A stretch of DNA of 64,000 nt from Flavobacteriaceae bacterium (GTDB lineage Bacteria; Bacteroidota; Bacteroidia; Flavobacteriales; Flavobacteriaceae). Positions 2,365-13,595 of the stretch are shown here, piece by piece. Both the position numbers and the translations under genes were made by a program. A model generated the notes under the pieces. The model saw nothing but the letters and a program-made list of their open reading frames with translations. It was not told where the DNA came from and ran no database searches. Each line of letters starts with the position of its first letter. Within the stretch, counting starts at the first letter, position 1. The stretch is taken from positions 1 to 64,000 of the forward strand of contig JALSVQ010000011.1 in assembly GCA_027073495.1 (NCBI GenBank), in the 5' to 3' direction.

Positions 2365-3135
2365 ATGAAAAAAGTTCTTTTACTTACAGTATTATTAAGC
2401 TTGTCAATACTGACTCAAGCACAGAAAAGCACACGTATAGCTTATATAGATATGGAGTACATTTTAGAAAATGTTTCTGAATATCAAAAAGCACAAGCAC
2501 AACTTGAAGCTACGGTTTCTAAATGGATAGCTACAGCTCAAGAAAAACAAGTTGCTATAGATGCTTTGAAATCTAATTTGGATAAAGAACGTATTTTGCT
2601 TACGCCTGAATTAATTGCAGATCGTGAAGCAGATATAAAAGTACTCGAAGATGAATTATACCAATTTCAACAAGAAAAATTTGGCGCAGAAGGATTGATG
2701 ATAAAACGCAAGCAAGAATTGATAAAGCCCATACAAGATCAAGTTTTTGATGTGGTACAATTGATACGTAAAGCTAAGAAATATGATTATGTTTTTGATA
2801 AATCTAGTAAAGAGATAATGATGATATCTGCTAATGATAAATTAGATATCAGTGATCAAGTATTACGAAGATTGAAAAGTGACGAAAAGCGCGCAGATAT
2901 AAAGCGTAAACGTAAGAAGAAATCAAAAAAAAGTAAAGCAAATAAAGCGCCAACAGAAGCACAACAAAAAAATATAGAAGCGCGTAATAAAACATTAGAA
3001 ACTCGAAAAAAAGCATTAGAAGCTAAAAAAGCAGCAGCTTTAAAAGCGCGTGAAGCGCGCATACAAAAAGCAAAAGAAGCGCGAGAGAAAAAAATAAAAG
3101 AACGTGAAGAACGTCTTAAAAAGAATAAAAAATAA
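2365..3135 (+). CDS. OmpH/Skp family periplasmic chaperone with long basic tail
   Basis: 256 residues. A signal peptide (MKKVLLLTVLLSL...TQAQ) is followed by the Skp/OmpH opening (RIAYIDMEYILENV) and a long coiled coil, as expected for a jellyfish-shaped chaperone that holds unfolded outer membrane proteins in the periplasm for BamA. The last 85 or so residues (about 170-256) are an unusual, extremely Lys/Arg/Ala/Glu-rich helical tail, which makes it longer than the roughly 165-residue family norm; its paralogue next door lacks this tail. It lies 46 bp after bamA with a candidate sigma-54 promoter between, and 36 bp before the second ompH. The family call is firm; the role of the tail is unknown. 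Confidence 0.9.
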   Translation: MKKVLLLTVLLSLSILTQAQKSTRIAYIDMEYILENVSEYQKAQAQLEATVSKWIATAQEKQVAIDALKSNLDKERILLTPELIADREADIKVLEDELYQFQQEKFGAEGLMIKRKQELIKPIQDQVFDVVQLIRKAKKYDYVFDKSSKEIMMISANDKLDISDQVLRRLKSDEKRADIKRKRKKKSKKSKANKAPTEAQQKNIEARNKTLETRKKALEAKKAAALKAREARIQKAKEAREKKIKEREERLKKNKK

Positions 3136-3171
3136 ACAAGAATAGAAATTATTAATTAAACAAGTAAGAAA

Positions 3172-3675
3172 ATGAAACAAATTAAATTATTAGTAGTAGC
3201 GGTAGCATTATTTTTCACAGCAGGATATGCTCAAGCACAAGAAATAGCTCATATTAATGTATCAGAATTGGTACAAGCTATGCCAGCAATGAAATCAGCA
3301 CAAGCTGAATTGAAAAAACTGGGTGAAACTTATGATGCAGACTTCAAAAGAAGAATGACAGCATTGCAAACAAAAGTAGCAAGATACAATAAAGAATCTA
3401 CTACAGTATCTGCAGAAGTGAACGCTACAAGACGTCAAGAAGTAGAAAGTGAGCAAGCAAGTATTCAACAGTCTGCTCAAACTGCTCAAGCAGAAATGGG
3501 TAAGAAACAACAAGCATTACTTGCTGCCATAGAAGCAGATGTAAAAAAAGCTATAGAAGCTGTTGCAGCAGAAAAAGGCTACAAATATGTTTTGGACGCA
3601 TCAGTTGGAGGAAGCGTACTAGTAGCAAAAGGTAAAGATATAATGAGCGAAGTAAAAGCAAAATTAGGAATCTAA
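3172..3675 (+). CDS. OmpH/Skp family periplasmic chaperone
   Basis: 167 residues, the usual size for the family. A signal peptide ends near AQAQE, followed by IAHINVSELVQAMPAMK, the conserved Skp/OmpH start, then a charged coiled-coil hairpin and a C-terminal YKYVLDAS...V strand that completes the trimerisation body. It should chaperone outer membrane proteins to BamA. It is the third gene of the bamA-ompH-ompH cluster and ends just before a strong bidirectional terminator. In many flavobacteria murI follows this pair; here it does not. Confidence 0.92.
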   Translation: MKQIKLLVVAVALFFTAGYAQAQEIAHINVSELVQAMPAMKSAQAELKKLGETYDADFKRRMTALQTKVARYNKESTTVSAEVNATRRQEVESEQASIQQSAQTAQAEMGKKQQALLAAIEADVKKAIEAVAAEKGYKYVLDASVGGSVLVAKGKDIMSEVKAKLGI

Positions 3676-3695
3676 ACCAAATTAGATAATTTTAT

Positions 3696-3729
3696 AAAAA
3701 GGATTGATAATTAATTATCAATCCTTTTT
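3696..3729. terminator. Bidirectional intrinsic terminator, perfect 34-bp palindrome
   Basis: Bases 3696-3712 are exactly complementary in reverse to 3713-3729 (AAAAAGGATTGATAATT and its inverse), with A and T runs at the ends, so it can terminate transcription from both sides. It separates ompH from the convergent gene at 3718-4056, whose stop codon lies inside the right arm. Confidence 0.9.
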
Positions 3730-4056
3730 TGTTTTCAAATAACTTAAAAAACTATAGTGTTTTCTGTTTTTTAGATAGTTTAGATTACGTTCATTACTAT
3801 AGGCTTCGCGTTCAAAAGAAATGTTTTGATACGCAATAAAACGATTTTTGTATTGTATAAAACGTAATAAATATTCTAAACCATACCAAATAAAAAAGAA
3901 GATGACGAGTAATTCTTTTTGCTGTTTGAGGTGAATACGCTCATGATTGATAAGAGCTTCATTGCCCAAATGTTTTTTGTGACGTAAAAAAATAAATGGC
4001 CAAATAGCCAAACCTACAAAACGTTTAGGTATAATAAATTTAGAAATTCGAATCAT
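3718..4056 (-). CDS. Small HEXXH-containing membrane-associated protein
   Basis: 112 residues starting at an ATG. It has HERIH at residues 38-42 (a HEXXH zinc-protease signature) in the setting NHERIHLKQQKEL, a hydrophobic helix at about 50-68 (LLVIFFFIWYGLEYLL), and a downstream FEREAYSNE (about 81-89) that could give a third, glutamate zinc ligand as in M48/M56-type gluzincins. It looks like a stripped-down M56/BlaR1-type zincin core. A real gene is supported by the composition, the terminator at its end and conservation-like motifs. Proteolytic activity is inference; it could be an inactive relative. Confidence 0.7.
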   Translation of the reverse strand: MIRISKFIIPKRFVGLAIWPFIFLRHKKHLGNEALINHERIHLKQQKELLVIFFFIWYGLEYLLRFIQYKNRFIAYQNISFEREAYSNERNLNYLKNRKHYSFLSYLKTKKD

Positions 4057-4124
4057 CTATTTGATATATTTAATAAAATTAACACTTATTATGGCAATAA
4101 GTATTATTTAATTAGTTTTTTTAC

Positions 4125-4132
4125 TAAATTTG
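4125..4132 (+). promoter_or_regulatory. -7 promoter element (TAAATTTG)
   Basis: Exact match to the Bacteroidota -7 pattern TAnnTTTG, 55 bases before the ATG of the large surface protein. No clear -33 TTG is visible. Confidence 0.5.
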
Positions 4133-4187
4133 CATAAACAAACCGACTCAAACCAACACACTTTTTTAATTAATAAAACAGTATGAT

Positions 4188-7100
4188 ATGAAATATGGTT
4201 TTTTATTTTTAGGTTTGCTTTTAGCCACTTCACTCCAGGCACAAACATTAACAATTGATAATCAAAATTATACTAATCAACAACTTGTTGATGAAGTTTT
4301 AGTTGTTTCTTGCACACCAATCACTAATGTGAATGCTACAGGAGATGCTACTATAAAGAGTTATGGCTATTTTCATCGAAATACAGGCTCTACCTTTCCT
4401 TTTGAGGAAGGAGTATATCTTACCACAGGTAGTTCAGAGCAAATTGTAGATCCAAATTATAGTTCTGGCATAAATGCTCCCACTATGTCGTATGGTACAA
4501 CTGCCTGGGGAACTGATGCAGATATTGAAGCCGAATTGGGGAACAGTAATATGATTAATGCTACAGTGCTAGAATTTGATTTTATACCAACGGTCAGTAG
4601 TATTAGTTTTGATTATTTAATGCTTTCTGAAGAATACCATGGAGAATATCCTTGTAGCTATGCCGATGGTTTTGCATTTTTGATTAAACCAGTAGGTGCT
4701 GCAGCTTACCAAAATATTGCCGTAATACCAGCTTCTACAACGCCCGTAGCAGTTACAACTGTACATCCTACTCAAGCTGATAATGGAAATCCTTTGTCAT
4801 GTGGAGCTTCAAACGCAGGTTATTTTGATAGTTATTATCCTCTAGACACCAATTTTAACGGACGAACTACAGTGTTGACTGCAACTACCGCAGTAACCCC
4901 AAACCAACAATATCATATCAAACTCGTGGTAGCAGATGCTACAGGAAATGGAAATCCAGACACATCATTTGATACTGCAATTTTTTTAAAAGCAAGAGGT
5001 TTAAATCTTGGAGCTGTAATGGTTGATTTAGGAGCTGATATTAGCATCTGCCAAGGTGAACCAAACCCTATTTTAGACGCAACAGTACCCAGTGCAACAG
5101 CACAATATCAATGGCAAGTTTTTGATACACTATCAAATAGTTATGTTGATATAGCAGGAGCTACAAACCCTACTTATGAAGTCACCAGTACCGGGTTGTA
5201 TCAAATATTATTAGATGTAGATGGCTGTTTATCTGATGACCGTGCACTTGTTACTATTAGTGAGGTTCCTGTTGCTACGCAACCACAAAATTTAGAACTC
5301 TGTGACAATGATGATGATGGTTTTATGACCATAAATTTACATAATCAAGATGCTGAGATATTAAATGGTCAAGACGCTACTGTTTTTGCGGTTAATTATT
5401 TCGAAGATGCAGCACTTACTATTCCTATAGTAAATGCAAATACCTATAATAATACGACAGCCTACCAACAAACCATTTATGCTCAAGTGGTAAATAACAC
5501 CAATAACACTTGTGCATCTAACATAGTAAATTTTGATTTAATTATTTATGATGCACCAAACCCTTTACCTATTTCAGATTTATTGATTTGTGATAATAAT
5601 GGTAATGGCATTGAAATTTTTGATTTGACTGTTCAAAATACAAATTTATTGAATGGTTTAAATGCTGCTGATTTTACAATTACATATTACGAAGATGCGG
5701 CACTTACAATTCCAATTGTAAACCCAACCAATCATACCAATACAAATTCACCATACAATCAAACTATTTATGCTACGATAGAAAACAATATACATAGCGC
5801 CTGTACGATTACAGTACCTTTTGATTTAATTGTATCTAATAATCTACCTATAGTACAGCCACCAGATTTGAGAATATGTGATGATGATGGTGATGGATTT
5901 TGGATATTTGACCTTACGGTTCAAGATAGTTTTATTTTGGCAGGATTAGATCCAAATCTATATACTATTACATATTACGAAGATGCAGCTTTAACCATTC
6001 AAATAGCTGATCCTACTGCACACCAAAACAACCCTGTAGATATACAAACAATTTATACTCAAGTTGTTAATAATGCAAGCCCAAACTGTAATACTGTTAT
6101 TCAGTTTGATATTATTGTTTATATAACACCAGCTGCAACTACTCCTCCAGATATTTCAGCTTGTGATACAGATAATGATGGCTATGCTGTTTTTGACTTA
6201 ACTGTAAATGATAACATAGTGCTCAATGGTCAGGATCCTGCAACTCATACGGTATACTATTACGAAGATGTAGCTCTGACGCAACAAATAACAACACCTA
6301 CTGCTTATACCAATACAATAGCATATACACAAACTATTTATGTGACGGTAGCAAATACAGAATTAAACACCTGTCAATCTGTTGGCGTTAGTTTTGATTT
6401 AAATGTCTATGATTCACCATTACCAATACCAGCTTTATCAGATTTGCGTGCGTGTGATTTTGCAGCCAATGGTATCGCTACATTTGATTTGACAGTCCAA
6501 GACACTACAATCCTCAACGGTCAAGATCCAGCTGTTTATTCGGTAAATTATTTTGAAGACGCGGCATTAACAACACAAATAGCTATTCCTACAAACTATG
6601 GTAATACAACTCCAAATCTACAGACTATTTATGTAGGAGTTATGAACATGAGCAACCCAGAATGTGTAGCCTCCGCTCAATTTGATTTAATAGTTAATAA
6701 TACACCTCTTATTGTACAACCAGATCCACTATTAGTGTGTGATGATGATAATGATGGAATTTGGACATTTGACCTAACTACTCAAGAAGCTATTATATTA
6801 AATAATCTTTCAAACGCAGATTATAGCGTTTCATATTATGAAGATGCTGCATTAACAAATCAAATAGTAACACCTACAAATTACACTAATACTACTGCAT
6901 ATAATCAAACAATCTATATTCAAGTAGTCAATAACACATTTGCTGCTTGTCAAAACACGACTACGCTTACCTTGCAAGTTTCTGATACTCCTACAGCAAC
7001 TCAACCACAAGATATGGTAGTTTGTGATACTGATAATCAATTAGGTGTAGGAGTTGGTTTTTTTGATTTAACAAGTCAAGATTCAGCAATATTAAATGGA

Positions 7101-8822
7101 CAAAATCCAGTGGTTTTTTCTGTTAATTATTATACAAACCCAGGACATACGGCATTAATAAATACTCCAACTGCATATATCAATACCACAGGAGGAGCCT
7201 CGCAAACTATATATGCACAGGTTTCAAATAATACATGTATTGCCGAGACTATATTCACAATCCAAACTTTTGATTCCCCTGCCCCACCTGCTGTTACCCC
7301 TGATTTCAAAAATTGTGATACAGATAATGATGGCTTACAAACGGTAGATTTAACGCTTTTTACACCTCAATTATTAAACGGTCAAGATCCAGCTATTTTC
7401 CAAGTAGACTATTATACAGACACAGCCTTAACTAATTTAGTTGCTACATCTAATGCATTCACAAACACGACTGCATATTCACAAACATTGTATGCTGTTA
7501 TTTATAACATAAACAATGTAACTTGTAGTCTTACAGTACCGTTTGACATCAAAATATATGATACACCGCAAGCTTTTCAAGCTAATGATATTTATTTATG
7601 CGATGATGGACGATCTGTAAGTTTTGATACGAGTATACAGATTCCTGATATTCTAAATGGACAAGAAAATATGTTGGTTAGCTTCTATGGCTCTCAAGCT
7701 GATGCTGATTCTGGTATAAACCAATTAGCAAACCCTTTTATAGCGACTGTCAATGCAGGGCCATTTACAGTGTTTGTACGTGTTGAAAACCAAGGTTTTG
7801 CTTCTTGTTCAGATACCTCAATGACATTTACAATAGAAGCATTTGAAGCGCCATTACCCCCTGTAATACTTACTCCAGTAAATATTTGTGATGATAATAA
7901 TGATGGTTTCTTTACTTTTGATTTACCTACATTAAAAGATATTGAACTACTTAATGGTCAAAATACTGCTGATTTTACAATTAGGTATTATACGGACGCT
8001 GCTTTGACCAATGAAATAGTCGCTCCTAATACTTTTACAAATACATTAATTCATACTCAACGTATCTGGGCGAAAATTTCTAATAATAATTACAATGGCT
8101 GTGATGAAACACGCTTTTTTGATTTAATTATCCATGATTTTGCCGCGGCTACACAACCTCAAAACTTACAACAATGTGATGGGGATACTACTATAGGAGT
8201 TGGCAATGCTATTTTTGACCTTACAACTCAAAATACAGCTATTCTCAATGGACAAGATGCGAGTACATTTGAAGTGCATTATTATACCGATGCCGCTTTG
8301 ACTTCTGAAATAATAAACCCAAATGCATACAACAATACCACAGGAACTGTAGCAGAAACTATTTATGTTGCTGTATTTAACACTAATTATACCGTTTGTA
8401 GCGCTACAACTTCATTTACTATTCAAATATTTGACACACCAAATATACCTACTGTCATTACCCTAATAGCATATTGTGATGATAATACAGATGGCTTACA
8501 TCAAACCGATTTAACCCAAAAAACAGTTGAAATACTAAACGGTTACCCTGCTGCTGATTTTGAAATTCATTATTATACAGATACTGCATTGACTAATGAA
8601 ATTTTAACACCAGCTACGTATTTGAATACTACACCATTTACAGAAACAATTTATGTTAAAGTGATTAATATAAATAATATTTCTTGTGAATCTCTAGGTA
8701 GTTTTATATTAAATATTAACCCAATTCCAACAGTAAATTCATTTAGTACAATGCTTTGTGATGAAGATGGAGTTTATGACAACTATACAACCATTGATTT
8801 AACACCTATCAAACAGAATTAA
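4188..8822 (+). CDS. Giant repeat surface protein (choice-of-anchor L), N-terminal part before a frameshift
   Basis: 1,544 residues to a premature TAA. A signal peptide (MKYGFLFLGLLLATSLQAQ) is followed by a choice-of-anchor L domain (about residues 30-275, with the LSEEYHGEYPCSYADGFAF core), an Ig-like segment (about 285-360), then near-identical modules of about 95 residues. Each module has CD-D-n-DG-FDLT, ILNGQDP, YYEDAALT and QTIY landmarks. The module at 8750-8822 is cut in mid-domain, and its continuation is found in another frame immediately downstream (8813-10006), ending in a T9SS type B sorting domain. Joined, the gene spans 4188-10006, about 1,939 residues. It is probably a surface adhesin exported by T9SS. 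The break is either a sequencing error, decay or a switchable frame. Confidence 0.88.
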   Translation: MKYGFLFLGLLLATSLQAQTLTIDNQNYTNQQLVDEVLVVSCTPITNVNATGDATIKSYGYFHRNTGSTFPFEEGVYLTTGSSEQIVDPNYSSGINAPTMSYGTTAWGTDADIEAELGNSNMINATVLEFDFIPTVSSISFDYLMLSEEYHGEYPCSYADGFAFLIKPVGAAAYQNIAVIPASTTPVAVTTVHPTQADNGNPLSCGASNAGYFDSYYPLDTNFNGRTTVLTATTAVTPNQQYHIKLVVADATGNGNPDTSFDTAIFLKARGLNLGAVMVDLGADISICQGEPNPILDATVPSATAQYQWQVFDTLSNSYVDIAGATNPTYEVTSTGLYQILLDVDGCLSDDRALVTISEVPVATQPQNLELCDNDDDGFMTINLHNQDAEILNGQDATVFAVNYFEDAALTIPIVNANTYNNTTAYQQTIYAQVVNNTNNTCASNIVNFDLIIYDAPNPLPISDLLICDNNGNGIEIFDLTVQNTNLLNGLNAADFTITYYEDAALTIPIVNPTNHTNTNSPYNQTIYATIENNIHSACTITVPFDLIVSNNLPIVQPPDLRICDDDGDGFWIFDLTVQDSFILAGLDPNLYTITYYEDAALTIQIADPTAHQNNPVDIQTIYTQVVNNASPNCNTVIQFDIIVYITPAATTPPDISACDTDNDGYAVFDLTVNDNIVLNGQDPATHTVYYYEDVALTQQITTPTAYTNTIAYTQTIYVTVANTELNTCQSVGVSFDLNVYDSPLPIPALSDLRACDFAANGIATFDLTVQDTTILNGQDPAVYSVNYFEDAALTTQIAIPTNYGNTTPNLQTIYVGVMNMSNPECVASAQFDLIVNNTPLIVQPDPLLVCDDDNDGIWTFDLTTQEAIILNNLSNADYSVSYYEDAALTNQIVTPTNYTNTTAYNQTIYIQVVNNTFAACQNTTTLTLQVSDTPTATQPQDMVVCDTDNQLGVGVGFFDLTSQDSAILNGQNPVVFSVNYYTNPGHTALINTPTAYINTTGGASQTIYAQVSNNTCIAETIFTIQTFDSPAPPAVTPDFKNCDTDNDGLQTVDLTLFTPQLLNGQDPAIFQVDYYTDTALTNLVATSNAFTNTTAYSQTLYAVIYNINNVTCSLTVPFDIKIYDTPQAFQANDIYLCDDGRSVSFDTSIQIPDILNGQENMLVSFYGSQADADSGINQLANPFIATVNAGPFTVFVRVENQGFASCSDTSMTFTIEAFEAPLPPVILTPVNICDDNNDGFFTFDLPTLKDIELLNGQNTADFTIRYYTDAALTNEIVAPNTFTNTLIHTQRIWAKISNNNYNGCDETRFFDLIIHDFAAATQPQNLQQCDGDTTIGVGNAIFDLTTQNTAILNGQDASTFEVHYYTDAALTSEIINPNAYNNTTGTVAETIYVAVFNTNYTVCSATTSFTIQIFDTPNIPTVITLIAYCDDNTDGLHQTDLTQKTVEILNGYPAADFEIHYYTDTALTNEILTPATYLNTTPFTETIYVKVININNISCESLGSFILNINPIPTVNSFSTMLCDEDGVYDNYTTIDLTPIKQN

Positions 8823-9290
8823 CAGATAATATTATAGGTAGAAATTTTTATTATTATACTGACAATGCTTATAGCAATTTAATTGCAGACCCTACACAGT
8901 TTATCAATACAAGTTACAATCAAACCATTTATGTAATAGTAGAAAACACAAATACACTATGTACCGCAAGAACTACATTATCACTAGTTGTATCATCTGC
9001 TAATGCTGTTGATTCAACATTAAGTACTTGCGATGATTTTCTTGAAGATGGATTCACAAGCTTTAACTTGACAGATGCTGATAGTTCTATACTCGTAAAT
9101 ATGACTCCTGGAATTGCTACTCTAAAACGTTATTTAACCTATAATGATGCTTTAAATCAAACCAATGAATATACAGCTGCTGCATATACCAACATTACAA
9201 ACCCACAGAATATTTATGTGCGTGTCACTAGTAATGTAAACCCTGATTGTTATAGTATTGCATCAATGCAATTAGTGGTTTATAGTTTGC
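5280..9290 (+). repeat. 14 tandem ~95-residue modules inside the surface protein
   Basis: Units of about 285-288 bp recur from about 5290. I count 14 openings of the form CD-[DTN]-[DN]-x-DG (the last two crossing the frameshift). Aspartate-rich DxDxDG-like openings suggest calcium-binding loops, and ILNGQ, YYxDAALT and NTTxYxQTIY recur. Units 7, 9, 11, 13 and 14 are the most diverged. The first repeats (1-6) are the most alike, suggesting recent expansion there. Confidence 0.85.
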
Positions 9291-10006
9291 CTGAAGTAGT
9301 TATGGATTCTACTTATTTCTTGTGTCTGGATACTGGATCGGTAGAAGTTTCTGCCAATGCTGTTTCTGCTACTTATGGTTGGTTTGATGAAAATGATATA
9401 ATTTTAGGTAATGCTAGCTCATATACATTTACAAATGCAGGTAATTATTATTTGCAAGTTTCTAATGCCAATGGTTGTTTAAAACGCGCCTATTTTACAG
9501 TAGAAATTTCTGAAAGTCCAGAAATTACGGCTATTGCTGTAGTAGATTTAAGTATTGACAACACACTAACAGTTACTGCTGTGGGAGCCATATCAGGAGA
9601 CCCTTTGGCTGCAAATCATTTTGAATATGCACTCGATAATGGTCCTTACCAATCAAGTAATGTTTTTCATAATGTTCATGGCGGTTGGCGTCTATTGCGT
9701 GTAAGAGATATTAATGGATGTGGAGAAGTGACACAACGTATAATGGTTTTGGATTATCCAAAATTCTTTACCCCAAATAATGATGGCTATAATGATACTT
9801 GGCACTTATTCGGTCATGAACATGTTGATGGGATAACAGTTTATATCTACGATAGATTTGGAAAATTACTCAAAATAATCTATCAATATGATTTGGGTTG
9901 GGATGGTCAGTACAATGGTAATCCGCTACCTGCTACAGACTATTGGTTTAAGTTAAAACTGAGAGACGGTAGAACATTTAGGAATCACTTTTCTTTAATA
10001 AGATAG
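8813..10006 (+). CDS. C-terminal part of the giant surface protein after the frameshift (T9SS type B sorting domain)
   Basis: In this frame the sequence continues the interrupted module without a gap (TELTDNIIGRNFYYYTD..., then YNQTIYVIVENTNTLC), followed by the fourteenth module (LSTCDDFLEDGFTSFNLTDAD), an Ig-like stretch and a C-terminal gliding-motility/T9SS type B sorting domain: FFTPNNDGYNDTW, VYIYDRFGKLL, GWDGQYNG, PATDYWFKL. The first possible start codon in this frame is a TTG at 9068, with no ribosome site, so independent translation is unlikely. One extra A in the AAA at 8811-8813 would fuse it to the upstream part. Type B sorting domains direct proteins through the type IX pore to the cell surface, often with a PorP/SprF partner. 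Confidence 0.85.
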   Translation, partial: TELTDNIIGRNFYYYTDNAYSNLIADPTQFINTSYNQTIYVIVENTNTLCTARTTLSLVVSSANAVDSTLSTCDDFLEDGFTSFNLTDADSSILVNMTPGIATLKRYLTYNDALNQTNEYTAAAYTNITNPQNIYVRVTSNVNPDCYSIASMQLVVYSLPEVVMDSTYFLCLDTGSVEVSANAVSATYGWFDENDIILGNASSYTFTNAGNYYLQVSNANGCLKRAYFTVEISESPEITAIAVVDLSIDNTLTVTAVGAISGDPLAANHFEYALDNGPYQSSNVFHNVHGGWRLLRVRDINGCGEVTQRIMVLDYPKFFTPNNDGYNDTWHLFGHEHVDGITVYIYDRFGKLLKIIYQYDLGWDGQYNGNPLPATDYWFKLKLRDGRTFRNHFSLIR

Positions 10007-10011
10007 AAAAA

Positions 10012-10262
10012 TTACCAATAGAGCCTCAAAGAAATATTAGGCAGTAATCCTGCACTATATTTTGTAGTTTTATGTATTGTGTATAAAGGAATATCAGTTA
10101 CGCTATAAATTGTGTTATAATAGTTTTTGGTATTAAGTATATTCTTTAATGCAAAACTACATCGTCCTTTTATTGTTTTGTTAAACTTAAATTTATAAGT
10201 AGCAGAAAAGTCAAAGCGTTTATAAAATGAATGTGTTTCTGTATTAATACCATCAAAATAAG
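10012..10262 (-). pseudogene. Remnant: C-terminal end of a TonB-dependent receptor
   Basis: The minus strand reads FYKRFDFSATYKFKFNK, FALKNILNTKNYYNT and a terminal SAGLLPNISLRLYW. This is the pattern of the last four or so strands of a TonB-dependent receptor barrel (conserved NILNTKN and aromatic final residue). Only about 80 of the expected 700-1,000 residues are present. The open frame runs on to 10329, but its first 20 residues (His-rich) are the antisense of an Asp-codon-rich fragment. It lacks a signal peptide, plug domain and start, so it is gene debris. Confidence 0.6.
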
Positions 10263-10414
10263 CACCTCCAGAATGATGGCGATGGCGTACTAACAGCAAA
10301 TGAAGATTATGGTGATGGTAATGTAGCAAATGGTGAACTCCAGACTATCTAGATACTGACTCTGATAACGATGGTACAGGTGACAATGATGACGGAGGAA
10401 GAATAAGAGGATAG
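10263..10414 (+). pseudogene. Remnant: Asp-rich (thrombospondin-3-like) C-terminal fragment
   Basis: One frame reads NDGDGVLTANEDYGDGNVANGE, and after a one-base shift the next reads TPDYLDTDSDNDGTGDNDDGG followed by a stop. The DxDxDG and TPDYLDTDSDNDG pattern belongs to calcium-binding repeats at the ends of flavobacterial secreted proteins and some FKBP-type lipoproteins. The shift and the missing upstream part mark it as a decayed fragment lying head-on to the receptor remnant. Confidence 0.5.
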
Positions 10415-10683: not shown

Positions 10684-11844
10684 TTATCCTTTCAAAACCG
10701 CTAAAGGCTGTAAACGAACTACAATATCAACTAAATCGGTTTGGTTTCTCATCACTTGGTCTATATCTTTATAAGCAGATGTTGCTTCATCCAAATCATT
10801 TTTAGTTTTAATAGCATGTACAATATTTTGCGCGTCTAGCAATTGTATTTCAGCTGCTAAATTCAATTCTCTTTGGGCTTGTTTTCTTCCTAATTTTCTT
10901 CCTGCACCATGAGAGCAAGACTTAAAACTTTGAATATTACCTTTGCCTTTTACTATATATGATTTTGTTCCTTGAGAACCCGGAATCATACCAAACTCGC
11001 CTTCAAATGCTCTTGTAGCTCCTTTACGATGTACCAAAACATTAGTCCCAAAATGATTTTCCCAAGCAGCAAAATTATGCGATTTGTTAATTAACTTACC
11101 AATATTAAAGCCTCCTTTTATTTTTTTAAGTGATTGCATCATACGTTGCATCATCAATTTTCTATTTGCCAAAGCAAAATCAACACAGTAATTCATCTCT
11201 TTGATATAATCTTTGGCTAATTGATCTTCTAAAGGTAGAAAAGCTAATTCTTGTTTTTTAGCAATCATAGAATGATACTTTTCATTTAGCTTAATAGCTT
11301 CTCTATTGTAATATTTAGCTACCTTATAACCTAAATTTCTGCTACCAGAATGTATCATTATCCAAATAAAACCATCTGAACCCTTCTGAATTTCAATAAA
11401 ATGGTTTCCGCCACCTAAAGAACCTATTTGTTTTAGTGCTTTGTCATAACCTTCTGAAACAATTAATAAATCCTCATAGTTTTTAGGCATTAAATCTTCA
11501 TCTTGTGACGCTTCGTGCCAATTAAAACCTAAAGGAATTACTTTTCTTGCCTCGCTTAAAACTTGTTCAAGTTCATCTTTAGTAATGGTTTTTAAACTGG
11601 TTTTTTGGGCACACATTCCGCAGCCAATATCTACACCAACCGCATTGGGTACAACCACACCTTGTGTAGCCAAAACACTACCGATAGGCATTCCATAACC
11701 TGGATGACTATCTGGCATAATTGGTATATGTTTAAAGGCAAAAGGTAAATTTGCTAAATTTTTTGCTTGCTTAATAGCTCCTTCTTCCAAATCATCTAAC
11801 CACATTTTTATAGGGATTCGCTCTGTTGAAATTACTTTTTTCAT
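10684..11844 (-). CDS. rtcB: RtcB family RNA ligase
   Basis: 386 residues from an ATG. All RtcB landmarks are present: MPDSHPGYGMPIGSV (about 43-57), the manganese-binding cysteine in VGVDIGCGM (C75), GSLGGGNHF (N147/H148), IHSGSRNLG (H165), the HRKGATRAFEGEFGMIPGSQG loop (about 272-291) and the SCSHGAGR motif whose histidine (H312) would be guanylylated. RtcB joins 2',3'-cyclic phosphate and 5'-OH RNA ends using GTP and Mn2+, in tRNA repair or splicing. It is shorter than the E. coli enzyme (about 408). It has no archease or rtcA neighbour. It is transcribed away from a WYL-domain regulator, which probably controls it. Confidence 0.93.
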   Translation of the reverse strand: MKKVISTERIPIKMWLDDLEEGAIKQAKNLANLPFAFKHIPIMPDSHPGYGMPIGSVLATQGVVVPNAVGVDIGCGMCAQKTSLKTITKDELEQVLSEARKVIPLGFNWHEASQDEDLMPKNYEDLLIVSEGYDKALKQIGSLGGGNHFIEIQKGSDGFIWIMIHSGSRNLGYKVAKYYNREAIKLNEKYHSMIAKKQELAFLPLEDQLAKDYIKEMNYCVDFALANRKLMMQRMMQSLKKIKGGFNIGKLINKSHNFAAWENHFGTNVLVHRKGATRAFEGEFGMIPGSQGTKSYIVKGKGNIQSFKSCSHGAGRKLGRKQAQRELNLAAEIQLLDAQNIVHAIKTKNDLDEATSAYKDIDQVMRNQTDLVDIVVRLQPLAVLKG

Positions 11845-11881: not shown

Positions 11882-11900
11882 TACGCAATCTTTTTGCGTA
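11882..11900. promoter_or_regulatory. Inverted repeat between rtcB and its divergent regulator
   Basis: TACGCAA, five bases, TTGCGTA: perfect 7-bp arms, placed about 40 bp upstream of the rtcB ATG and just upstream of the regulator's -7 box. A plausible operator for the WYL protein. Confidence 0.5.
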
Positions 11901-11977: not shown

Positions 11978-13561
11978 ATGGCAGTAAACAAAAATGCTTT
12001 AATCAGATACAAAACCATAGATAAATATCTTCAAAATAGGCTTCGAAAATGGACATTAAATGCTTTGATTGAAAAATGTTCCGACGCACTATATGAATAC
12101 GAAGGAAAAGATACCTCTATTAGCAAACGAACCATACAATTGGATATTCAGAATATGCGAAGTGACAAATTAGGCTATAATGCACCTATTATTGTAGTAG
12201 ACAAGAAGTATTATACCTATGAGAATGAAAATTATAGCATTACCAATTTACCAATAAGTGCCAATGATTTAGAAAAATTATCCGAATCTGTGGCTTTTCT
12301 AAAACAGTTTAATGGTTTTTCGCATTTTAATGAGCTCAATGGTATTATTCAAAAATTAGAAGATCACATCTACACCAAACAAACCAATAATAATCCAATA
12401 ATAGATTTTGAAAAAAACGAAAATTTAAAAGGACTGCAGTTTTTAGATATTATCTACAAAATGATTTTGAACCACAACGTTATTAAAATAACATATAAAT
12501 CTTTTAAAGCAAGACAAGAGCATTCATTTCTTTTTAATGCATATTTACTAAAAGAGTTTCGTAACCGTTGGTTTGTTATAGGGAGCAAACAAGGTCAAAA
12601 TGACATAATGAATCTAGCATTAGATCGAATTATTGCCATCTCAGAAAGTGACATCCCTTATCATTACAATACCAGATTTAATCTGAACGAATATTTTAAC
12701 AAAGCTATTGGCGTCTCTATAAATCCAAATTTAGAGACTGAAAAAATATTGTTATTTATCTATAAAAATCACGCACCCTATGTGATTACAAAACCACTAC
12801 ACGCTTCACAAAAAGTTATTGAAAAGACTCTTTTTGGCATTATCATTTCGTTAGATATTCAGCACAATTACGAATTGGAAAAAGAAATATTAAGTTTAGG
12901 AGAAGGGGTAAAAGTAATTGCCCCAGAACGTTTAAAACGCAATGTGAAAGATAGATTACGTTATGCTTTCAATTCGTATCAAACAGAATTAACAACCGAA
13001 AATCTAACAAATACTATCAAACAGTTTCGTCAGAAAGGGGCTGCTACTGTAAATCAACTCTATAGTTTGCGTGAAATCAAGAAAATACATCAAGCGCTAC
13101 GTTTTTATGAACGGACTAATAATTTATCAATTCACACACTCACCGATCTTTTTACTGCAATTCCGCTGACAAAAGAACTTGTTTTTAATAAAAATTTACA
13201 AAAGGTAATTGCTCAAATAGATAAAACAGCAACACTTGTTTCAAGCGTTTATCACAGAAAATATTCAAAATCAATCCTTCAAAAAGGATGGTTTCAAAGT
13301 AAAACAAAACATCAGTTCAAAATTATAATTTATTTAAAAAATAATATCGAATATGACTTGGCTGTAATTTTAGGCTCTCACAAAACTATCCTTAAGCCTA
13401 AAGAAATTGATTTGTTGGTTAAAAACAGTATAGCTTATACCTCGCAGATACAAAAGGGAGATATTCAATTGATACAAGACAACCTTTTAAGAAAATGGGA
13501 TGTCAGTCAAAAACAATTTTTTGATAGTATTGAACTGACTTTTAAAATTGAATTATATTAA
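11978..13561 (+). CDS. WYL-domain regulator with a PhyH-like C-terminal domain
   Basis: 527 residues. Residues 1-85 form a DeoR/YafY-type winged helix (ISKRTIQLDIQNMR recognition region). About 150-330 is a WYL domain and its C-terminal extension (LKEFRNRWFVIG, LALDRI, ILSLGEGVKVIAPERLKRNVKDRL). Ordinary WYL regulators stop here at about 330 residues; this one continues for about 190. That tail (345-527) resembles a phytanoyl-CoA dioxygenase (PhyH) fold: LFTAIPLTKELVFNKNLQKVI, then VILGSHKTILKPKEI, IQKGDIQLI and a closing FDSIELTFKIEL. The HxD iron site is missing and the late metal histidine is replaced, so it would be non-catalytic, possibly a ligand sensor. It is divergent from rtcB and likely regulates it. 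The helix-turn-helix and WYL parts are firm; the PhyH likeness is inferred from memory of the family. Confidence 0.8.
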   Translation: MAVNKNALIRYKTIDKYLQNRLRKWTLNALIEKCSDALYEYEGKDTSISKRTIQLDIQNMRSDKLGYNAPIIVVDKKYYTYENENYSITNLPISANDLEKLSESVAFLKQFNGFSHFNELNGIIQKLEDHIYTKQTNNNPIIDFEKNENLKGLQFLDIIYKMILNHNVIKITYKSFKARQEHSFLFNAYLLKEFRNRWFVIGSKQGQNDIMNLALDRIIAISESDIPYHYNTRFNLNEYFNKAIGVSINPNLETEKILLFIYKNHAPYVITKPLHASQKVIEKTLFGIIISLDIQHNYELEKEILSLGEGVKVIAPERLKRNVKDRLRYAFNSYQTELTTENLTNTIKQFRQKGAATVNQLYSLREIKKIHQALRFYERTNNLSIHTLTDLFTAIPLTKELVFNKNLQKVIAQIDKTATLVSSVYHRKYSKSILQKGWFQSKTKHQFKIIIYLKNNIEYDLAVILGSHKTILKPKEIDLLVKNSIAYTSQIQKGDIQLIQDNLLRKWDVSQKQFFDSIELTFKIELY

Positions 13562-13595
13562 AAAAAGCGGTTTCTAAAATTAGAAACCGCTTTTT
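13562..13595. terminator. Bidirectional intrinsic terminator
   Basis: AAAAAGCGGTTTCTAA, two bases, then the exact inverse complement: a 16-bp GC-containing stem flanked by A and T runs. It lies directly after the stop of the WYL regulator and also suits the convergent gene that ends at 13650. Confidence 0.9.

Follow-up and report, generated by a model that had tools for sequence, protein, structure and literature searches.

A gene in the genome of a Flavobacteriaceae bacterium (GenBank assembly GCA_027073495.1, contig JALSVQ010000011.1; positions 1 to 64,000, the 64,000-nucleotide stretch analysed here and referred to as the window) was found to encode a WYL transcriptional regulator fused to a degenerate PhyH-type domain of the 2-oxoglutarate (2OG)/Fe(II) oxygenases, and the gene diverges from rtcB. 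We consider it rather probable that the product regulates RNA repair as a WYL protein of the DriD/PafBC kind, dedicated to rtcB, and that its oxygenase has been turned into a module without catalytic activity that serves structure, docking or ligand binding. The features of the regulator gene are as follows:

11978 to 13561, plus strand: WYL-WCX-pseudoPhyH regulator gene, an uninterrupted open reading frame of 527 aa for which homologues were found
11978 to 12439, plus strand: N-terminal winged helix and linker, residues ~1–154 (weak HTH_11 matches in relatives; model match to DriD)
12440 to 12637, plus strand: WYL domain, residues 155–220 (Pfam PF13280, E value 2.2e-8)
12740 to 12961, plus strand: WCX domain, residues 255–328 (Pfam PF25583, E value 4.4e-7)
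12995 to 13552, plus strand: degenerate PhyH-type double-stranded beta-helix domain, residues ~340–525 (from homology, fold and active-site columns)
13289 to 13300, plus strand: mutated HxD motif WFQS, residues 438–441, aligned with WHQD in intact relatives
13566 to 13595, plus strand: hairpin AGCGGTTTCTAA-AA-TTAGAAACCGCT with a T run, directly after the regulator stop codon (read from the sequence by eye) and, on that reading, the likely intrinsic terminator of the gene

The WYL and WCX domains were both identified by Pfam in the window protein, which places it among the WYL transcription factors, and a Pfam scan of the whole protein found neither a CARF domain nor an AAA+ sigma54 activator domain. 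No Pfam HTH domain was detected in the window protein, while relatives give weak matches to HTH_11. However, the full-length AlphaFold model (pLDDT 82; pTM 0.59, a value that leaves the packing of the domains uncertain) was nearest to the structure of DriD with ssDNA and operator DNA (E value 3.2e-13) and also resembled PafBC on RNA polymerase, with a fold match over ~350 columns, winged helix included, to DriD and PafBC in their DNA-bound structures. The original prediction was of ~190 residues continuing beyond a winged helix, WYL domain and C-terminal extension, and a tail of this size does follow the WCX domain in the 527-aa frame. The tail region was correctly placed, though the position given for its start, 12978, misses the frame by one base, as the codon for residue 334 begins at 12977.

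Direct searches of the window tail against Pfam, NCBIfam and PDB sequences returned only chance matches, and none to PF05721. A scan of 84,980 genomes for homologues of the regulator returned 80 relatives, distributed across Bacteroidota and of two lengths, the long ones carrying a tail of ~240 residues and the short ones ending at ~335. The tail is thus present in other Bacteroidota genomes and is not peculiar to the window genome, in which no further copy was found. The tails of the long relatives include WHQD, GSHNKRLSDEEI, LLLHASS and RRVLHLEF, and matched PhyH (PF05721) clearly above the curated cut-off in L025 (E value 1.8e-9), L047 (2e-15), L061 (6.6e-14) and L069 (2.6e-13). The corresponding motifs of the window tail, IPLTKELVFNKNLQ, GSHKTILKPKEI, IQKGDIQLI and IELTFKIEL, correspond, column for column, to MPELKEVLFNKNF, GSHNKRLSDDEI, SSGGVQLLKP and RRVLHLEF in the intact PhyH tails, and are therefore not chance resemblances. 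Two non-circular profiles, one of intact tails alone (with the window excluded) and one of non-fused PhyH proteins alone, found the window tail with E values, calculated for 1e6 sequences, of 1.5e-23 and 4.5e-10, respectively, which bears out the earlier observation of PhyH-like blocks in the same order.

A structure prediction, which had been suggested as a check, gave a confident model of the tail (pLDDT 87.8, pTM 0.85) with the PhyH-type double-stranded beta-helix fold. Its matches among solved structures were GriE, SnoK, EctD and FtmOx1 (Foldseek; best E value 2.6e-10), with Z scores of 17–19 against 2OG oxygenases and 17.1 against human PHYHD1. As the AlphaFold alignment included intact homologues, which pull the model toward the PhyH fold, the model is support for the assignment and not independent proof. 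Together with the sequence homology established via the intact relatives, it identifies the tail as a degenerate domain of the PhyH-type 2OG/Fe(II) oxygenases.

The active site of the window tail has been lost. The His/Asp/His metal ligands are replaced by F439, S441 and R505, and the column of the 2OG-anchoring Arg, after the distal His, holds Asp, so that the active-site columns read FSRD in the window and HDHR in intact tails. The HxD part had been described as cut short; the strand itself is present, though mutated from WHQD to WFQS, and it is the ~31 residues behind it that are missing, with 8 residues standing for 39 before the following strand begins. The last ~14 residues of intact tails are also absent. 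Given the loss of the metal ligands and the Arg and the ~31-residue deletion, catalysis and canonical binding or sensing of 2OG/Fe by the window tail are unlikely, judging by its sequence. Homology, fold and the lost catalytic residues thus uphold the proposal that the WYL regulator carries an inactive fold of PhyH type. The suggestion that the tail senses 2-oxoglutarate is not supported, since the metal ligands and the 2OG-anchoring Arg are absent. It is doubtful, too, that the tail binds a small ligand other than 2OG/Fe in the old pocket and so forms a true second sensor, the more general form of the original proposal. The confidently modelled fold and the retained columns Y334, G354, N404, N406, Q440, L453, G466 and G494 would be consistent with such a role, but most of these columns look structural, the metal ligands, 2OG Arg and lid are all gone, and no new pocket motif is common to the degenerate lineages, whose tails are only 0.21–0.28 identical to each other, as against 0.29 between the window tail and intact tails.

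Among 70 distinct tail-bearing members, all from Bacteroidota, 54 keep the H/D/H residues and 16 are degenerate. On a tree built from the WYL part alone, the degenerate state required 10–11 changes by parsimony, at least 3 of them forced by well-supported branches, and the hypothesis of a single degenerate clade was rejected, though only modestly (p-AU 0.03). It looks, therefore, as if the oxygenase part has been lost, and retained as a non-catalytic part, several times. The low identity among degenerate tails, lying below that between the window tail and the intact ones, is as expected under separate decay.

A further reading is that the tail is merely decaying, its chemistry no longer needed, and is drifting toward loss with the tail-less regulators as the endpoint. 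Tail-less relatives are common, and the window tail is 29% identical to intact tails whereas the remainder of the protein is 60% identical, a tail value lower than in any of the 524 intact pairs whose bodies have diverged to a similar extent (lowest 0.36). Nevertheless, the reading frame is intact in the 15 other degenerate members, the fold model is confident, and the tree shows no descent of tail-less members from degenerate ones, with a possible exception around L202, which sits on a long branch. In the degenerate clade L065/L046/L011, dN/dS (Nei-Gojobori) was 0.10–0.19 for the tail and 0.04–0.07 for the body, indicating a weaker but real constraint on the tail, at least in this sister lineage. 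Simple decay is thus improbable; no sequence close to the window tail was among those compared, the dN/dS values being those of the sister clade, and this particular copy may be on its way out.

Most WYL relatives in two genome samples had no tail. In an order-level sample of 395 genomes, a WYL relative (E value ≤ 1e-50) was present in 110 and the tail, scored in both samples as an open frame above 500 aa, in about 9; in a class-level sample of 395 genomes, the figures were 71 and about 14. The PhyH subfamily of the tail also occurs as free, non-fused proteins of ~245 aa in Bacteroidota (L136–L155), and no rtcB or other RNA-repair gene was found as a neighbour in the 20 such loci examined. In one locus, L140 (coordinates 6291–7643), the free PhyH carries a second C-terminal domain (450 aa).

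The gene context of the regulator was compared across the relatives. The divergent neighbour in the window is:

10684 to 11844, minus strand: rtcB, encoding a 386-aa RNA ligase, divergent from the regulator (Pfam PF01139, E value 1.4e-106), a conserved neighbour

On the opposite strand, the relatives carry genes for RtcB, SPFH/Band-7, RlaP, TROVE/Ro60, PNKP or a T4-type RNA ligase, all of them RNA-repair components, so the location beside rtcB that was to be looked for is part of a conserved linkage of the regulator to rtcB or other RNA-repair genes. Behind rtcB in the window, a 105-aa open reading frame (coordinates 10012–10329, minus strand) gives the impression, from its sequence, of the C-terminal remnant of an outer-membrane receptor, and two successive open reading frames of 1544 and 312 aa (coordinates 4188–10006) resemble one large repetitive secreted protein broken near 8822–9068.

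Three types of RtcB stand behind the same regulator, one of 386 aa, one of ~465–510 aa and a third weakly like both (examples are L067, coordinates 1443–2840, and L038, coordinates 1406–2887), and the ligase seems to have been exchanged under one operator. The pseudo-oxygenase could be imagined as a platform on which RtcB or a different repair protein docks, the operon product binding its own regulator and the tail co-evolving with RtcB. There is a precedent in E. coli, where RtcA and RtcB bind the CARF domain of RtcR (PMC9650030), and degenerate tails do tend to stand beside the 386-aa RtcB, with divergent and for the most part longer types next to the intact ones (7/11 versus 3/34 tree rows; Fisher's exact test, 6e-4). 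However, correction for the tree leaves 2 independent pairs, so that the association of tail with RtcB type is not established and the coupling of degenerate tails to short RtcB was set aside despite its raw significance; intact tails also occur with short RtcB (L054, L108 and L113). Docking of this kind appears unlikely as the specific role of the tail.

As many as 12 tRNA genes with differing anticodons lie clustered between SPFH/rtcB and the WYL gene, within the region of the RNA-repair operon, in L039 and L073 (coordinates 2792–4133), L102 (1749–3126), L074 (3545–4096), L031 (4401–4815), L035 (2555–4075) and L217. At least one tRNA gene was present in 21 of 48 intact-tail loci, and every one of the 59 tRNAs is encoded on the operon strand; they might serve as spares that are co-induced with repair. 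Sub-threshold matches to YrlA, a Y RNA-like, tRNA-like RNA, were found in many loci in the interval from the WYL gene to SPFH, with E values down to 1e-8 (L025, 3465–3532; L032, 3046–3156; L049, 3921–3986; L051, 4689–4751; L056, 4649–4756; L076, 1832–1942; L214, 8102–8208; L215, 7562–7663), and no YrlA-like RNA was found in the window. A coupling of intact tails to operon tRNAs (21/48 versus 0/14) was considered and rejected, as the loci are not independent of the tree, and it is further weakened because degenerate SPFH loci carry Y-RNA/tRNA-like RNAs too.

The intergenic region between the two divergent genes includes a conserved palindrome:

11882 to 11900, no strand assigned: predicted operator TACGCAATCTTTTTGCGTA, at a distance of 37 bp to the start of rtcB and of 77 bp to that of the WYL gene

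This palindrome, TACGCAA-N5-TTGCGTA, is the sole match in the 2.35-Mb genome. The consensus TRCGCAR-N5-TTGCGYA was found upstream in 78 of 101 relatives at a threshold of at least 11 of 14 core matches, irrespective of the tail (degenerate, 15/16; intact, 39/52; tail-less, 24/33), and random pieces of the same loci reached this score in 0–9% of draws, mostly in none. In most members the site ends ~39 bp before the regulator start, whatever gene lies opposite, and the core elements TNCGCA and TTGCG are invariant across 20 distinct sites. The palindrome is therefore taken as the predicted operator of the regulator. Its occurrence with tail-less relatives indicates that the tail is unnecessary for DNA recognition.

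In the preferred reading, a dimer of the regulator would bind the palindrome between the divergent genes via its winged helices, and the WYL-WCX part would sense a product of nucleic-acid damage, probably a single-stranded or cyclic-phosphate RNA end, and would switch rtcB and the regulator's own gene. An RNA damage product would be the most likely ligand of the WYL part, by analogy with DriD and PafBC and in view of the sensing of broken tRNA by RtcR, which serves the same operon type. The C-terminal domain would derive from a 2OG/Fe(II) PhyH oxygenase that became fused to a WYL regulator in Bacteroidota; in the window lineage it would have lost the metal, 2-oxoglutarate and lid elements, and what remains, a non-catalytic structural, docking or ligand module, may tune the switch, whether allosterically or by docking. 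As for the intact family, one tentative idea, to which we give little weight, is that O2, iron and 2-oxoglutarate gate repair through the fused oxygenase, whose target of oxidation would be the end of an RNA or tRNA, a nucleotide signal or the regulator protein. The window copy would then be a pseudoenzyme that kept a regulatory contact after loss of the chemistry, as would have happened several times in parallel.

RNA-repair operons are widespread, and to our knowledge few of their regulators or signals are known, RtcR being the worked-out case. A WYL regulator with an oxygenase tail looks like a little-known mode of RNA-repair control. No description of a WYL-PhyH fusion was found in the literature searched. 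A 2016 survey of RNA-repair operons by Burroughs and Aravind reportedly covers operons with SPFH, RlaP and tRNA-like RNAs and may mention this regulator. WYL regulators and RNA-repair operons are already known, but the fusion, the predicted operator and the repeated conversion to a pseudoenzyme appear to be undescribed. A second regulator type, unrelated to RtcR, whose predicted operator is precise and occurs in many Bacteroidota and which carries a fused oxygenase, makes testable both the signal that switches on RNA repair outside Proteobacteria and the role of a 2OG oxygenase there, and the repeated pseudoenzyme change provides natural experiments in which intact, dead and absent tails are carried by the same switch.

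The PhyH 2OG oxygenases PHYHD1, EctD, GriE and SnoK, and the free proteins L136–L155, share the fold and sequence family of the window tail, which differs in having lost the whole metal triad together with the Arg and the lid. CapW and BrxR are WYL regulators governing an adjacent operon, as is predicted here, but in the titles and abstracts of PMC9122588, PMC9122601 and PMC9122589 they are linked to CBASS, BREX and other phage defence, with no PhyH domain mentioned there, whereas the window regulator is found at RNA-repair genes. RtcR, a CARF-sigma54 activator of rtcBA that senses broken tRNA with cyclic-phosphate ends (PMC7790460), is similar in its target rtcB, the predicted target here too, and in the kind of signal, as the window regulator probably responds to an RNA product; however, RtcR combines CARF with an AAA+ sigma54 activator, and the window regulator is a WYL protein that has neither. 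DriD of Caulobacter and PafBC of mycobacteria, both activated by ssDNA in the WYL domain (PMC11804915, PMC12340889), have the same wHTH-WYL-WCX build and are the best solved-structure match to the full-length model, but they answer DNA damage and do so without an oxygenase tail, whereas the window regulator is tied to RNA-repair genes and to a single local operator.
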